Below are positions 5,995-60,900 of a DNA stretch of 64,000 nt, piece after piece. Position numbers and translations under genes: made by a program. Numbering within the stretch: the stretch's first letter is position 1; each line of letters begins with the position of its first letter. The notes beneath the pieces are model-generated. The model was not told the DNA's origin and did not search any database. It saw nothing but the letters and a program-made list of their open reading frames with translations. Location: assembly GCA_018389105.1 (NCBI GenBank), contig JACATO010001546.1:124001-188000 (forward strand). Direction: 5' to 3'. The DNA is from Nautilus pompilius. Its lineage: Eukaryota; Mollusca; Cephalopoda; Nautilida; Nautilidae.

Positions 5995-7700
5995 CAAAGA
6001 GGAGCAAAGTGCTTAATGCATCTTGTGGCAGCGGATCAGAGTTCCAAGCGCCACCTACTGTTGGACTTTCGCTTTCCGTTTGAAAATAATAGGCTGAGCT
6101 TAGAGTTGGTTCGCTCACCGTTGAGGCAGCTTCACGTCACAACAGAGCGTCACAATGACTCGAATTCAATGGGGAAATCAGATTTTAAAAGGAATCGAAA
6201 GGGTGGAAAATTCTTAGAAAATAAAATTAAAATGTTTAAATGGTTCCCGGTTGCGCTGTGGGCAAAAGTGTTGATCAAAAACTACATCATGAATTGTCGT
6301 CCACGACCAGTTCAGACAAACTGTGCAATTCAAAAATTAGACATTATTACTTTAACTTACTGGCATTGCGCATCGAAACAGGTTTTCAGGAAAGGAAGGA
6401 CCGTGATCATGGCGACTGGAAACATGGGGTCCATTAGTTAATTCAGTTACCACTTCTAAGGAGAAAGAAAACTAACTACCTTCCAGATACTTTTTGTGAA
6501 ATACTGCAAGGTTCATAGATACCAAAAGAACGAGGACTCTTTTTTTTTATAATTCAGCTGTAATGTAAAAATATATATATTTAATTTAAGGAATTCATTA
6601 ATTTTGTTGTTGCAGCGATTCAAAATCGGTAGTAGCTTAACAGAAGAGGTTTAGTTGAAAGACACTGCGACCTTTTCTGATCTCGTGTTTGGTAACAATA
6701 CTTTTGAAGGTCGATGTCAACAACAGAGGCCGGCATTTGTATCAGTCAGTAAATATCATGTGAACACGTACTTTACTCGGTTAGTAGATACGAAACAATA
6801 AAATTGAGAATACATTTGATTTGGGGCCGCGGTGCTCCGTGAATTACTTTAGATATACTATGGCTCCCTCCCATCTCGCCGGGTTTCATACATACGGATA
6901 AACCGGGCGAAGTTAACTCTCACGCCGAGCCATGCGATTTTTATGTCAAAAAGTTACATCGAGATGTTAGAATAAGTAGGTGCCATCGTTCTAAACTGGA
7001 GCTGATGCCTTGTCGGCGCGGCTAGTAATCAGTTATTCTTTGACATCGCCAGCTGCGATCGGTCGATGTTAGAGCCGTTCTCATTGGCTAGCAAGCAACG
7101 GCGTTGATAATCCTTGCTGGTGTCACAAGAGAATTAAGGCAGTTTTCTTGCTCCGGAATCTAATCTTCCGAGTTGACACTTAAAGAAAAGAAGACTTTAA
7201 CACCGCCGTAATTTCCGCTTCGTTTGCCGTTTTAAGCTTTCGTGATACAGTCTCGCGGTGGTCTCTGGGGTCGGGCGATAGGCGACACCCGAGGGGAAAT
7301 ATCCTCCTCGACATTGCCAAAAATCGGTTAACGCCACTGAGCTTTATTTTAAATTATATCCTTCTCTTTAGTTATGTTAAACAAACAGTCTTGTAAGTGT
7401 TTGCATTTAAATTAATTGGGGGGAAGGAAGGAGAATGAAATCCTACCTAACCTCTAAGCCTCCCTTCGTTTTACACTGTGTAGGGCGGAGGTGCGAACAT
7501 CGCTGCCACTTGTGGATGGATGGATGCCTTTTGCAGATAGGATGAGCAATAAACTCTAACGGCTGTAAGCAGAGAAGTACACTACCTATTCCTCGATGGA
7601 TGCCAGCCGGTGGTCTAGCCGACCTAAGAATCAATTTTGGATCCACTATTATCTTTTATTTGAGCTGATAGAGAGCGAAAAGAAACCACGAACCAAAGCC
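5995..7700. other. Intergenic, no feature supported
   Basis: The longest frame is the 6016-6441 plus-strand ORF, which matches no family I know. I see acceptor-like tracts near 6553 and 6614 but no coherent exon chain. The remainder looks unique and partly CpG-containing (about 6830-7330). Confidence 0.35.
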
Positions 7701-7775
7701 AACCGGTCCCGACCAAAATTCGAACTCTGACCCGCATCCTCAGCAGTCGACTACCACCGCGCCATCCGGTTGAAC
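7701..7775 (-). repeat. tRNA-derived SINE head
   Basis: On the minus strand the order is an A box TGGCGCGGTGG (plus 7754-7764), then about 28 bases later a B box AGAGTTCGAATT (centre 7719-7725), closed by a GC-rich stretch that partly pairs with the start. Spacing and motifs match the pol III promoter of a tRNA, but the stem pairing is too poor for a working tRNA, so a tRNA-headed SINE is the best call. A tail may extend towards 7620. Confidence 0.55.
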
Positions 7776-8039
7776 TCGGTCTTCCTTTCCCTAGTCGACG
7801 TGTTTTGGTTAATGCGCGGAAAGGCTGGAAAATTGTTGTTTCCGCCATTGAGAGAGAGATGAGACGCTTCGCGTCCAGTGGCCGACCTGTTCCTGCTGCA
7901 GCCAGGAAAAACTCTCCGTTTGCCACCAGGGGCAGAAACGGGAGTCTCGCTGGCAAGTCGGCGACCTTGAAGGCGTCACCCCGCCTGCAGCAGGTTCCAA
8001 GTAAATGTTCAGCCCCGGTCGGTGAAGGGGGCCACTGCC

Positions 8040-8046
8040 TATAAAG
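8040..8046 (+). promoter_or_regulatory. TATA box of the 7SL RNA gene
   Basis: TATAAAG starts 31 bases before the predicted first base of the SRP RNA. Invertebrate 7SL genes commonly use an upstream TATA element at about -30 for RNA polymerase III, so the spacing supports both this site and the chosen RNA start. Confidence 0.7.
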
Positions 8047-8070
8047 GTAGCGATACGGAAGTAGTAGTTG

Positions 8071-8375
8071 GCTGGGAGTCGCGGCGAGCTCCTGTAATCC
8101 AGCTGCTTGGAGGCCGAGTCTGGCGGACGGTGCGAGGTCGGGGTCGCCTGCTAGGCGGGTGGTTATGGCGATCGGGCGTCCGCGCTAAGATTGGCATCGA
8201 CATGGTTACGCCGGGGGAGCTCGGTGCGTCCAGGTTGTCTAAGGCGGGGTGAACCGGTCCAGGGCGGAAACGCAGCAGACAAAAGTCCCCGTGCCGACCA
8301 GTAGTGGGATCGCGCCTGTGAATATCGCTCGGCTAGTATCCTGTCCATACGATCGGACCCAGATTCCTCTCTTTT
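8071..8375 (+). ncRNA. Signal recognition particle RNA (7SL RNA)
   Basis: This is the RNA scaffold of the signal recognition particle, which binds SRP54, SRP19, SRP68/72 and SRP9/14 and pauses translation of secreted proteins. The sequence aligns by eye with animal 7SL along its whole length. The Alu domain start GCTGGGAGTCGCGG is followed by the conserved loop CTGTAATCC. The S domain contains GATCGGGCGTCCGCGCTAAG. Helix 8 has GTGAACCGG, the GGAA tetraloop at 8266-8269 and AGCAG at 8274-8278. The 3' half carries CAGTAGTGGGATCGCGCCTG. Its length, about 305 bases, is normal. An upstream TATA box and a T9 stop at 8372 complete a pol III gene, so a working copy is more likely than a pseudogene. 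All open reading frames here are spurious. Confidence 0.95.
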
Positions 8376-8380
8376 TTTTT
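8372..8380 (+). terminator. Pol III terminator T9
   Basis: Nine consecutive T residues directly follow the 3' end of the 7SL RNA. A run of four or more T on the non-template strand is the standard RNA polymerase III stop. Confidence 0.85.
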
Positions 8381-8788
8381 GGAAAATTAAATATTTTTAA
8401 GATACAGACAACGTCTTCCCCTGAACCCATAACCCCAGATCGATCGATCAGTGCCTTATCTGATAAGCGAAAAATTGTTCGCGCCCTTTAACAAAGGGAG
8501 GCGATTCATGAAGCCTGAATTCCGTGCACGTGTCGGAGTTTGGATTGTGATGCTATTTCAAAAAGTGTTTCCTTCCGGAAGGAGTTGACACGGCTCGGAT
8601 TAGGTCTTAAACAATTTTGACATCGTGCTCTCAGGAAAACAGTAGCAGGTATTTAATAAGGAATATTTTAAGTAAGCAGCCATGTGTTCTGAATTTCAAT
8701 TCACTAAGCTGGCGCGGAAAAGGCTGGTTGTTTCATGATAAAAGGCAAGGTAAGTAACAACAACAATGAGGCTAATTAGTAGATTGTT
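8381..8788. other. Spacer between 7SL RNA and nidogen 3' end
   Basis: I see no gene in these roughly 400 bases. The 7SL gene and nidogen are convergent across it. Confidence 0.4.
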
Positions 8789-9590: not shown

Positions 9591-49902
<40,312 letters not shown>

Positions 49903-51232
49903 AGTAGCAAAGCGGGGAGCAATAAGTTTTAATGTTCTAGTCCAGACCCGGTAGTTAGTGTGGGTAGTATAGCATAGACATTAAAAAGGGCAGAGACACT
50001 CCAGAGTCGGATGTCCACCGAAGTCCAGCTCTCCGTCACTGGTGCTATATTGCGGGCTAAAAGCCTGTTCTCACCGACCAATGACTAAACTGACTTTCGA
50101 CGGAACCCTAACAAGACCCCGCCAGCATCCCTTCCAAGAAGGCTAGCGTGCTCGCGAGAACTTTATTGACGACAAGCGTAGGCTCACCGGGAGGTAATGC
50201 GGTGCCTAGTCGCCCACGCGAAAGAATCCGCCGATGTAACGGTATATCATTTAAAAATGACACGCGCAACTTGAGAATAGCTGCCTGCGGTTTCTTAACC
50301 CTAGAAACGGAATTTCAAGGGAAAAGGATAAACAAATAGAAAATATAACCTTGGGAGGGGGGGACAAAAACAAAAACAAAACATACATAGACTGCTTGTT
50401 TCTAATTTTAAATGGGTGTCTTAATTTTAAGAAAATCCAAACAGTCATTTTATCAGTGTGGCAAAGGAGCTGAGAAAGAAAGGGTGGGACAGGAAGACTA
50501 CACCATAGATAAATTCCAGTTCTCCCCCATTTTAAAGTCAACGTAGTTATTTTGTTTATGGATCTTCAAACTTAAAATATTTACTCCTTTCTCTGGTAAA
50601 AGAAAATCCAATTAACCCTAGAGAATCTCGTATACCGTAGTGCTAACATATAATACTTGAAAAGGTAACAAGAGTCAGCTGCCCCTGACTGTTCTTATTG
50701 CCCATATCTTTGACAGAAAAGGTAGCGTCATATATTATATAAACCGTGCTGCAACATCAGCAGCAGCCTCTTCTGGAACATGATCTTCTAGCGAAAAATC
50801 TATCGTTTCTTCCTTACTACAGTGAAAACATGTTACATTTCGGTTTTACTTTTGTTTTGTTTTTTTTTTAATTATTAGACCAAGAATAAAAAGCACTTTA
50901 GTATTTAGTTACATACATACTTGGTGATGTTTAATTATTAAATATTTACCTCTGGCGTGCTAAAAGAGATGGGAAACCAGAGTTCCATCCCATCCATTAC
51001 AAGGTTATTATCTAAATATACTAATCAGATTGTGGATTAGGTAAGGAACATTAGCAAAGTGGTTCCGGGTACGTAATTATGGTATATGACATCAAAAACA
51101 ACCAAGGCGATGAATGCTAGAACATATCCACATATCCATGAAAATATGAAAACAAATGACTACATTAAATTGTGTTTAAAGTGACTAAGTCCATATCGAA
51201 ACTCGATATCAGGAAGTAAAGCAATAGTGATA

Positions 51233-54913: not shown

Positions 54914-54950
54914 ATGTAAGATGCGTCTGAGGCAGGATGGCAGGAGTTAA
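54914..54950 (+). promoter_or_regulatory. Two upstream reading frames before the homeobox start
   Basis: A minimal start-stop frame, ATGTAA, lies at 54914-54919. A nine-codon frame starts at 54921 and ends with TAA at 54948-54950, so it overlaps the homeobox start at 54937 in another frame. If transcribed, both could lower translation of the main frame. Confidence 0.45.
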
Positions 54951-57900
54951 TGGTGGCAAGGTCCCAGTGAGCACCGTGCACACGAAGCGGAAGCGAACGT
55001 TCATCAGTTCGTCGGAGCTCGCCAAGCTAGAGAAGCTGTTCGAGGGCGACCCGTGGCCCAACCGGTCGCGGCGGGAGCAGCTGGCCTCCGACATCGACAA
55101 GTCGGAGAACTTCGTCAGCGTGTGGTTCCAGAACAAACGCGCAAGGTTCAAGCGGCAGGGCCGGCTCAAGCAGCTCAACCGGTTCACGGCGATCAAGGAG
55201 AACCAGGAGGATACCACCACCCCCGGGGAAGGCGGCGGAGCCGTGGTCGAGCCGGTCGGATCCGCCTCTCCCGTACCGGCGGCTCCCCGCGCTGCCGTGA
55301 AAGCCGGTTGCCCCTGTTCCCACAACATGAAGAAGAAGGGTCCGGCGGCGATCCCAGCGGCGACGAATCCCAGTCCGAGCGGGACCCGCCAGGTAAAATC
55401 GTCCGATTGTAGAGAGTTCGCCAAACAACAAGGTCCGTTCAAGCTTGACAAGGTAGCAACAATAGTAGTAGTAGTAGTCGTATATCGCGCGAACCATGCC
55501 GTATCAGGCGGGAGGGACCTCCTCTCCCGAGCTCGTCTAAGTCTCCAGATGCACATTCAGTTTCAGACCGAACAGAAAAATCCCACGAATGTTGACTTAG
55601 CCCGCCCCCCCTCCCTCTCCTATCCCCCGTCCCATCGTCCGGGGTCTCGTCCCGGTTGATCTGACACTCCGAAGTTTCATCACCCCCTCCCAAACACACA
55701 CACACGATGGGCGTCTGCCCTCCCCTTTCCTGGAAAATTAATGGTGATAGGTGTAATGCTGAATAACATTGCTGTCTGTTTGGTTGTTGTGAGGGGACAG
55801 ACGAGTGAAGCCATCTCGGAGAAGTGTATCAGGGTGTCCCTTCTCCCTCTCAGGCTTCCTTTTTAACTCGAGAGATTGGACCATTCATCTGTTTTGGTTC
55901 CCTCCCCCCTTGGAAATGTCCACATCCCAGCTGTTTTGGTTGAGGGGAGTTCAGTAAGTAGGCTTGTAAAGGAATAAGTAGATTTATATGCCTGGGTTTT
56001 GTTCTATGTCCAAAACAGTTTGTGGAGATTGCAATTTTTTTGACATGAAAAAAAAGAAGAAAAACAAACTAACCCCCCCCACCCAACTTATTGTAAATTC
56101 TAATAAAGGAAGTTTTGAGAATGGTCAGAATTAGACGGCACCAGATGGGTAGAGCTGATCACCGGAATAAAGAGCTCTCAGAATGTCTTCCTGCCCATAA
56201 CTGTGTACAAAAATAGGAAAAGCGTAGGTGTGCGCTTACTCACAGCTTCATTCTAAAGTTAAAAGGATGGCCTTTCAAAACCTGATTAAGTAGAAATTTT
56301 AAAATAATCGACCATCCACCCCTCCCTTTTTTTCTTTTTAAATCATGAAACTGGGCATATTCCTTTGTAAGGACTTTCTAGTTGGCCTGTAGACCAGGGA
56401 ACGCACCTACAATTATCTAGTATTCCTTGCGTGCGATCTCATGCTTTGATTTCGTCTTACAGCTGTTGCGTGCATTCTCGTGTCAGTGCATACAACGCTA
56501 CAAAACGAATCTGAAAGAGAAAAATTTTCTAAAGAAACCCTTGTAGGGGCTACCAAAAGTGAGAGTACGCAAATCAACATCTGGCCAACTAGCAAATTAC
56601 CAACCGAGTGAGTGAGTTATCCTTGTGGTTTCTTTCTGTAAATGAGTGAAGTGCAACGAGGTATATATTTTAAAAAAAGTTTTATTTTCACTATTCCAAG
56701 AGATCCCTTTCTCTTTAAGCTTTGAAAACTTTAAAAAAAAAAAAAAAATTAAAATAGCACTGCATTCAAATGCGTAGTCGCAGTTGTAAGACCTTGATGC
56801 CATCTATATAAGAGGTTAGTTTCACAAGTTGCTTGGTGACAGGAAATTTCTTTTTGTTAATAATTTTTCAATATACTGATAGAGAAAAACTGGTTAAAAT
56901 AAATACATGTACTATGTAAATGTGCTAACAAACTGAAAAAATTCAGTGTTTTGGCACAACCTATACAAAGACAATAAATGATTTTAATGTCATTGACTTT
57001 TTGGATTACTTGAATTGCATCTTTGTTATTTTTATTCTCAGCATTGAACACATCTATAAAAATGATGCTTTTATTAGTGTACTGCATTTTTTCAAGTGAT
57101 CCTACTTGAAGCAGTCTTTTAGTTTAGTTATTACAGGGAGGCATGTTACTTTCTATCAAGGTCTAAAGGGCCCCAGTGAAAAGAATGTAAGATCTTATTC
57201 CAGCTGTTCACTTGTCTTAATCTCTCTCTACATCCAGTAATATTTTTGATTAAACCCTTTATTTATAGCTTTTTTTTTTCTTTCAGTAGAAAGTTTCATG
57301 CTTGACAACTTGTGATCATGGGCATCAACAGAAAGTTGATGGTGATAGTGTAATGATGGCATTATTTTTTGCCTAATTCACTATGCTCTCTGGTGCATAG
57401 TGAACCAGACAAGAAATAACAAGTCTGACTGGACCTGTCCTAAGGCCAAAACGTCAAGGGTTTGGAAAAGAGTATGCCTTCTCCTGCTGTAATTTATCCT
57501 ATGGACATTTTTTTTTTTTGTCATTTTGCCCCCTCCTGGAAAAAATACCTGTGGATGCCCATTCTTGTGTATTTATTGGTTCACATCTAATACAACTTTC
57601 CATACCAGATGTAAGTCTGAAGTTTCTAAGTTGAACTGTCTTTGAAGTAAACTCACTATCAGGATAATCCATGGAATCTCTGTTACCATACAGTCAGTAG
57701 AGTTAGGCTATTATTGCATCTTATATGTAATTATTGGTAACAATAACTACTTGACATCCTCCTCCTCCTAACAACCTGGGGAGAAGGGGTTAATAGAGAA
57801 ATAAAACCTGTTTTAGATAGCAGTGCAAGAGGCTTAAAGAACTAGTTAAAAGAAAGAAAAAAAAATGAATTTGCTGTATAGAAATGTTAGAAAGCTATTT

Positions 57901-60900
57901 TCTGACAAGACTGAATGATGGCTGATGATAGGTTGGCAGATGCTTGAGTTTACTCTAATTTTTTTGAAGTTTTATTTGATATGATTTAGAAAACAAGAGC
58001 ATGTTAAAAAATCCACTGACAGAAGAAAAAAGCCAAGGGCTTAGCAAAACTAATTGTAGGTATTAAGTTTAATAAACTGAAATATTTTTTTATTTAAAAA
58101 AGAATAAGCCTATGGAATTTTAATGTATAAAAATGAAAGAGAAAAATGTGGCAGGGTTATTATTTTTTTGTAGAATGTTGGAAATTGTTTTGTACCAGAA
58201 TTTTTCTTTCGAAATAAGCTACTTATCTATTATTTAAGTTTACCAGGGATGATGAATAAATAAAAAGGAGGAAACCTTTTTGTTTTTATGGGTGGACTTG
58301 TGTTCCTTTTGCATTTTGACTTTTGGTAAATATTGTTTAAGAACAATGGTAAAAGACAGAAGGAAGATCATCTTTAAGAAGTAAAACCTATTGTCATTAT
58401 CAGTGATATAATTTTTAAAAAATGCTGATCAAATCAAAATGGAAAGGAACTTATTTTTTTGCTATTAGAAGTTATGGCAAATAACCTGGAAGAACTTGTG
58501 CTGAACAAACATTGTTCCGATTTATGGAAAAGGTGTCTAGACTTTCAATTTCCTTTAAATAATAATTCTGTCTGGCTGTTTCAACAAAAAATTTCTGGTG
58601 ACTATAAAATCCATAATCCTGGGCTATTTATAATAATTGGTGTCCAGATGTTTTAAAGGAAGAGGAGGTTGGTGGTCTGGCAAGTTAGTTCTACAAAGTA
58701 CCTTTTCAGAGACTTTATTGGAAATCGAGTAGATAAGCATGTGAAAGTAAAAAAAAAAAAAGGCAATAAGCCCCCTGCTTCCACTGACATTGTTTTGAGT
58801 GGATTGCTATTCTTTTGTTTTTTTTAATCTGATTGGCTAAAAGTTAAAGTTAGACAAAGTCATGGTCAGATTATATTATTGTCGTCATTAAACGATGTGG
58901 CAACTGAACCATTGTCGAGCATGGGTATATAATTTTACACATTTTTAAAAAAACACAACCTTTTACTTAAATGCAGTCTGTACATTTTGTATAGAAGTGA
59001 ATTGATTGAGATTATATTTTTAGAAAATGCCAATGTTTCTAACAATTTCTTACCTATCCCCTCTGCCATTTTCCATTATAAGAGGTACTTTTTGAAAACT
59101 TGAGTTTCTACCTTGATAAAATTATTAACTGTGATGTTTGAATTGCACTTAAGGAGAGAAAAAACTCTAAAAGGTATATGTGACACTCTTTAATAAAGAA
59201 AGAAAAATCTGTCATAGTTGATCTTGTACAACTTATGACAAATCAACCCTACAGCATAAACACCAGTTTACATTCATTAGCATAATAAAATGATAATGCA
59301 ATAGGCAATGATCTTTTGCCAGTAGATATGTAAATGTTCATCAGGAAGGTTTACCTTTAGCGACCTGCTGCACAGAAGTTGGATATCATCAGGCTAATGC
59401 AATTAAGATAGAAAATCGTAGCAAAATGATCTGAAACTCAGCTTTTTCCTTTAAGGAAACTGGTAAGTCTTCCTTGCCCCCCCCCCTTTTTTTTTAGTAC
59501 TCGACTGAATCACTGGATTAATTTGAATGTCTATGGAACCAGTTAATATTTTGTTGCTGCTTAAGTCTATGTAAAGTTTTTCTGAAGTTCAGAGTTTTTG
59601 CAACTTTTTTTTTAAATATTATGTATGAATTTCTGTTGCGTTAATTTTTTTAAAAGTCTCCTGGAAGCTGAACCCTTTTTTTGGTGAAAAATATCCACAT
59701 ATTTCTGATTAATTGTTGATTTTTAATCCTTTTGTGACCTCAGAGAGAATCATAACAAATTAATCCTGAGAGTATATATATATAGGATCAATTGTATACT
59801 TTTTGATAATATGAACAAATCAGAGATAGAGAAATGCTAAGAAAGAACTTGAGTTCTAACTGATGTACTTGAAATTAACATTTTACATTTCTTACCAGTT
59901 TTCTCTATTTTGACTATTAATAAAACAAAATATAATCAATGTAAATTATCTTAGATACTAAAAACTTTGTATTTTAACATTTAGCATTATTTTATCATCA
60001 GCACGCCATTTGTCGCTTGAATTTTTTGTTTAAATCTTAGAAAAACATGTATTTTCAGATTTATTCATACTCTTTTTGTAGTTAAATAATTAATAGCTAA
60101 TAATTTGTAATTCCAACTTATTCAAACATTTTTTAATTGATCTGTTGTGATAACTTATTAATTTTTCTGAATTGTTAAAAAGATTAAATAATTATAGAAA
60201 CAGCTTTTTGCACTTTTTGTTTTGCTGTAACTAATATGCAGAGTGGTTAGTCTGCTAAGGTTGAGGGCCTGAGTTTGAATCTCAGTTAAGACTGACTTAG
60301 TTTGGTATACTATCTTCCAGGCATGGTTTCTTTTTGTTTTTCTTCATCAGCCGGTCATGCAAGATTTTCTTTGGGTGCTCCAGTTTTCTCTCACCTGAAA
60401 ATGAAGTGTTCTAATAGGGACTTTTGCTGGTGGCCTTCCACAAAGAAAAGTAACTTGTGCAACCCACTTAGCTTGTAAGCACATGACCCCCTAATCTCAT
60501 ACAAGGAAGGGGAAATAGCATTCAAGATTTTTACATTGAACAAGATTGTTTTATTGTGATTAATATACTCTTTTATGAACAGCAAATGCAGATATTCAGA
60601 AAATGTGAAAGGAAGTTGTGCTGATCTCTGAGATACCCTTTTCCATTATTCTATCCAGTGTGATTGGAATTTTATTTGAATTGCTTTCTACTGACCACTT
60701 GTCCAGTTCTGGTCAGTATTTTTTCAATGTATTCAAACCTCTACTTAGAATAAATGATTTGGCTGTGTTGTCTCATACTGCAAAAGTTATTTTATCCATC
60801 ATAAATGCATAGTAGTTTTGAGATAAGATGTCTGTAATACATGGCTTTATAGTCAGTCTTTTGGTTTGTTTTCAGTATCATCTGTATGTGATTTGGCTTT

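Follow-up and report, generated by a model that had tools for sequence, protein, structure and literature searches.

A probably intact 7SL (SRP) RNA gene with a canonical TATA box in an animal genome

The stretch at 8071-8380 of the window (the window is the whole 64-kb stretch of DNA that was analysed) is very probably an intact animal gene for 7SL RNA. It has the full length of this RNA family, the family's motifs, a TATA box, and a run of T residues at its end. The signal recognition particle (SRP) steers newly synthesised proteins into the export pathway of the cell, and 7SL RNA is the scaffold of SRP. Judging from its sequence, the locus seems to be an ordinary member of this well-known RNA family and is probably functional. 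We describe 8071-8368 as a putative gene rather than as an intact-looking copy. We consider the host to be an animal because the neighbouring features include nidogen domains and a homeodomain. As a result, an essential RNA gene has a usable annotation, at a locus that protein-based gene finding would miss. The finding also adds one observation on the variation of 7SL promoters among animals, and it alters no view of how SRP works.

The match to metazoan SRP RNA

The first-pass annotation of this DNA had claimed a complete 7SL (SRP) RNA gene here and had named, beforehand, a covariance check with the Rfam model Metazoa_SRP (RF00017). When the 64-kb window was compared with this model, 8071-8368 on the + strand gave a strong and significant match (213.9 bits, E = 3.2e-57). 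The match runs from end to end of the model (positions 1-299 of 299), and its score is about three times the curated cut-off of 70 bits. No other RNA family reached its Rfam cut-off anywhere in the 64-kb window. A permissive Rfam scan found 12 further matches in the window, all of which were below the cut-off for their own family.

The Alu domain of 7SL RNA holds SRP9/14 and slows elongation. The S domain holds SRP19, SRP68/72, and SRP54, and SRP54 binds signal peptides. The locus has the features that are common to metazoan 7SL RNAs in RF00017: the full length, the order of the domains, the UGUAA of the Alu domain, the GGAG loop of helix 6, the GAAA loop and AGCAG of helix 8, the conserved 3' block, and the T run. 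All of these are on the + strand. The UGUAA of the 5' Alu domain (8093-8097) is identical to the consensus letters of RF00017 and is presumably the core of the SRP9/14-binding site. In the RF00017 alignment, helix 6 (8198-8237) has its GGAG loop at 8216-8219 and forms 15 of 18 pairs as standard pairs; we take it to be the SRP19 site. Helix 8 (8245-8290) has 11 of 15 standard pairs, a GAAA loop (8267-8270) that is closed by G-C, and AGCAG at 8274-8278. We assume that the tetraloop and AGCAG together are the SRP54 site. Both the alignment and the motif position place the conserved block, CAGTAGTGGGATCGCGCCTGTGAATA, at 8299-8324, on the 3' side of the central stem, and a search for motif positions found CAGTAGTGGG at 8299-8308. 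The order of motifs in the first-pass annotation holds for the Alu loop, AGCAG, and the conserved block, which lie where it had placed them. Its helix 8 loop, GGAA, needs correction: this is the GAAA loop read one base early.

We also searched two sequence collections. An exact 24-base block and a degenerate pattern for helix 8 each had 0 matches in viral_contigs, and the exact block had 0 matches in genome_contigs. These collections hold viruses and prokaryotes, so, as expected, they offered no relatives to align.

Base pairing and predicted folding

The sequence is identical to the RF00017 consensus at 207 of 297 aligned positions. Most of the 90 differences (79) are in paired columns. Nevertheless, 95 of the 120 consensus pairs are standard: 60 are unchanged, 15 are changed on one side, and 20 are changed on both sides, which means that 35 altered pairs still pair. 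Another 24 are non-standard (the consensus itself has no standard pair at 8 of them), and one further pair is gapped. The 95 standard pairs and the 20 double changes argue against a decayed copy. On the other hand, 16 of 112 consensus pairs are lost in 8071-8368, and this counts against an intact 7SL gene. The double changes are concentrated on the 5' side of the long stem, with 15 of the 20 in alignment columns 47-95.

As a null, we placed the same number of substitutions at random in the paired columns (5000 trials). This null is a crude guide only, because it ignores phylogeny, compares a single sequence to a consensus, and relies on an alignment that was fitted to the model; it kept a mean of 66.1 standard pairs (standard deviation 4.4, maximum 83) versus 95 observed, and it gave a mean of 5.6 double changes (maximum 14) versus 20 observed.

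Energy-based folding gave no clear support for the 7SL fold. The minimum-energy fold of 8071-8380 (310 bases) was no better than those of shuffled sequences (z = 0.52), and 69 of 100 shuffles folded at least as well as the native sequence. This best fold has 60 of the 95 standard consensus pairs in common. For 8071-8368 (298 bases), the best fold has 0 of the 95 standard consensus pairs, and its energy is -124.5 kcal/mol, versus -94.8 kcal/mol for the consensus pairs alone.

Promoter and terminator signals

The TATAAAG at about -31 and the T9 at the end, both of which had been reported in the first-pass annotation, are present. The TATAAAG box is at 8040-8046 (+), which corresponds to -31 to -25 relative to the model's first base, and is probably a TFIIIB/TBP site. 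The T9 run at 8372-8380 (+) is probably the Pol III terminator; 3 bases separate it from the end of the RF00017 model. The locus thus has what is looked for in a Pol III gene, namely a TATA near -30 and at least 4 T at the end. As a measure of chance, 0.8% of window positions (on both strands) have the start of a TATAAA in the nine-position slot from -34 to -26, and 0.5% have the start of a T9 in an eleven-position slot. A TATAAA and a T9 that are 325-340 bases apart occur twice on the + strand of the window (8040/8372 and 18089/18425) and never on the - strand. Because this spacing was found twice, it is not unique by itself; the SRP match is unique.

These signals suggest how the gene might work. 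TFIIIB, bound at the TATA box that lies 25-31 bases upstream, would probably recruit RNA polymerase III, and weak internal elements might assist. We infer that the locus is transcribed and where the exact ends of the RNA are: transcription would start near 8071 and stop in the T9 run, which would yield a transcript of about 300-305 bases. The transcript would then be assembled into the signal recognition particle as its scaffold.

The promoter can be compared to those of mammalian 7SL genes (human 7SL-1, 7SL-3, and others), as described in sections of PMC7279448. In these genes, a TATA-like box (consensus CTCTAGTA) occupies -31/-24, and a CRE lies farther upstream, at -51/-44. Citing earlier work, the same sections state that substitutions in the TATA-like box or in the CRE lowered the in vitro transcription of human 7SL. 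Like the mammalian promoters, the locus has an element at -31/-24, but it is a canonical TATAAAG instead of the TATA-like CTCTAGTA. It also lacks the CRE of the mammalian promoters: positions -51/-44 read CGGTGAAG instead. Over the 200 bases that precede 7SL, TGACGTCA, TGACG, GGGCGG, and CCGCCC are all absent, and the only CRE-like trace is the half-site CGTCA at -97. Four strict patterns for tRNA-like A and B boxes had no match in 7951-8400; this is a weak test, as those sections of PMC7279448 describe the A boxes of 7SL as atypical. A scan for bacterial promoters and terminators found nothing, which is irrelevant to an animal.

It is conceivable, although we would not bet on it, that a strong canonical TATA box leads 7SL transcription in this lineage and replaces the mammalian combination of a weak TATA-like box, a CRE, and internal boxes. 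If so, TFIIIB could be positioned almost without the aid of other elements, and the stronger TATA box might make up for the missing ones. Judged by title and opening of the abstract, no paper found in literature searches deals with TATA-led 7SL promoters in invertebrates, but most of these searches were restrictive and are weak evidence of absence.

Other explanations and the surrounding sequence

Could the locus be a full-length pseudogene, or an extra copy that is not expressed, which arose by retroposition or duplication? Animals can have several copies: within a survey of schistosomes (PMC2770079), one table column has 12 SRP loci, and a portion of the text mentions eight probable SRP candidates and four with point mutations. 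However, the locus is full length, it has its own TATA box and a T run at the right spacing, and many of the changes in 8071-8368 preserve pairing. The flanks also argue against retroposition, as 8001-8075 and 8356-8450 have no word of at least 6 bases in common, and there is no A-tail (runs of A in 8369-8450 are at most four bases long). Overall, none of the marks of a 7SL retro-pseudogene (truncation, an A-tail, or a target-site duplication) were found at 8001-8450. Neither the permissive Rfam scan nor blastn found a second 7SL copy in the 64-kb window; when 8040-8380 was compared by blastn to the remainder of the window, the 15 hits were chance matches, 11-27 bases long and with E values of 2.6 or 9.0. 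We consider a pseudogene or silent copy to be improbable.

It is far less plausible still that 8071-8380 encodes a protein and that its similarity to SRP RNA is incidental. Four stop-to-stop frames of 93-186 codons do overlap the RNA (one on the + strand and three on the - strand), but G+C-rich DNA is expected to have open frames on both strands. Furthermore, none of the five frames that overlap or adjoin the RNA (7624-8332; four overlap it) had a hit at the Pfam cut-off. One of the five had a sub-threshold hit to DUF2917 (16.6 bits versus a cut-off of 25.5 bits, E = 0.005). Given its E value of 3.2e-57, the SRP match is not incidental, and coding is very unlikely.

Besides the probable 7SL gene, the window contains pieces of a nidogen gene on the - strand. 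Pfam identifies Ldl_recept_b (11604-11933), EGF (17127-17561), G2F (23986-24393), and NIDO (34728-35048) domains. The pieces span 11604-35048, and possibly reach 49980, apparently with large introns between them. By eye, the frame at 49549-49980 (-) resembles the start of nidogen with a signal peptide; it has no Pfam match. A Tc5/CENP-B-type transposase with a partial DDE_1 domain (Pfam; 32669-33652, +) sits among the nidogen pieces and is encoded on the other strand. It consists of two open stretches in one frame with stop codons between them and is probably a decayed insertion.

Farther along, a 242-codon open frame at 54931-55659 (+) encodes a homeodomain (PF00046, 57.7 bits). ARAGORN reports a tRNA-Ser(tga) at 60240-60334 (+); this region has no Rfam tRNA match even at E values of up to 1, so the tRNA is probably a false call. 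Finally, 48851-49536 is a long, degenerate, CA-rich (CA/TG) tandem array. Eight of the 12 Rfam matches that fell below their cut-offs are microRNA models on this array (48.8-49.5 kb), including mir-297 and mir-3149, and its open frames are rich in His and Thr.
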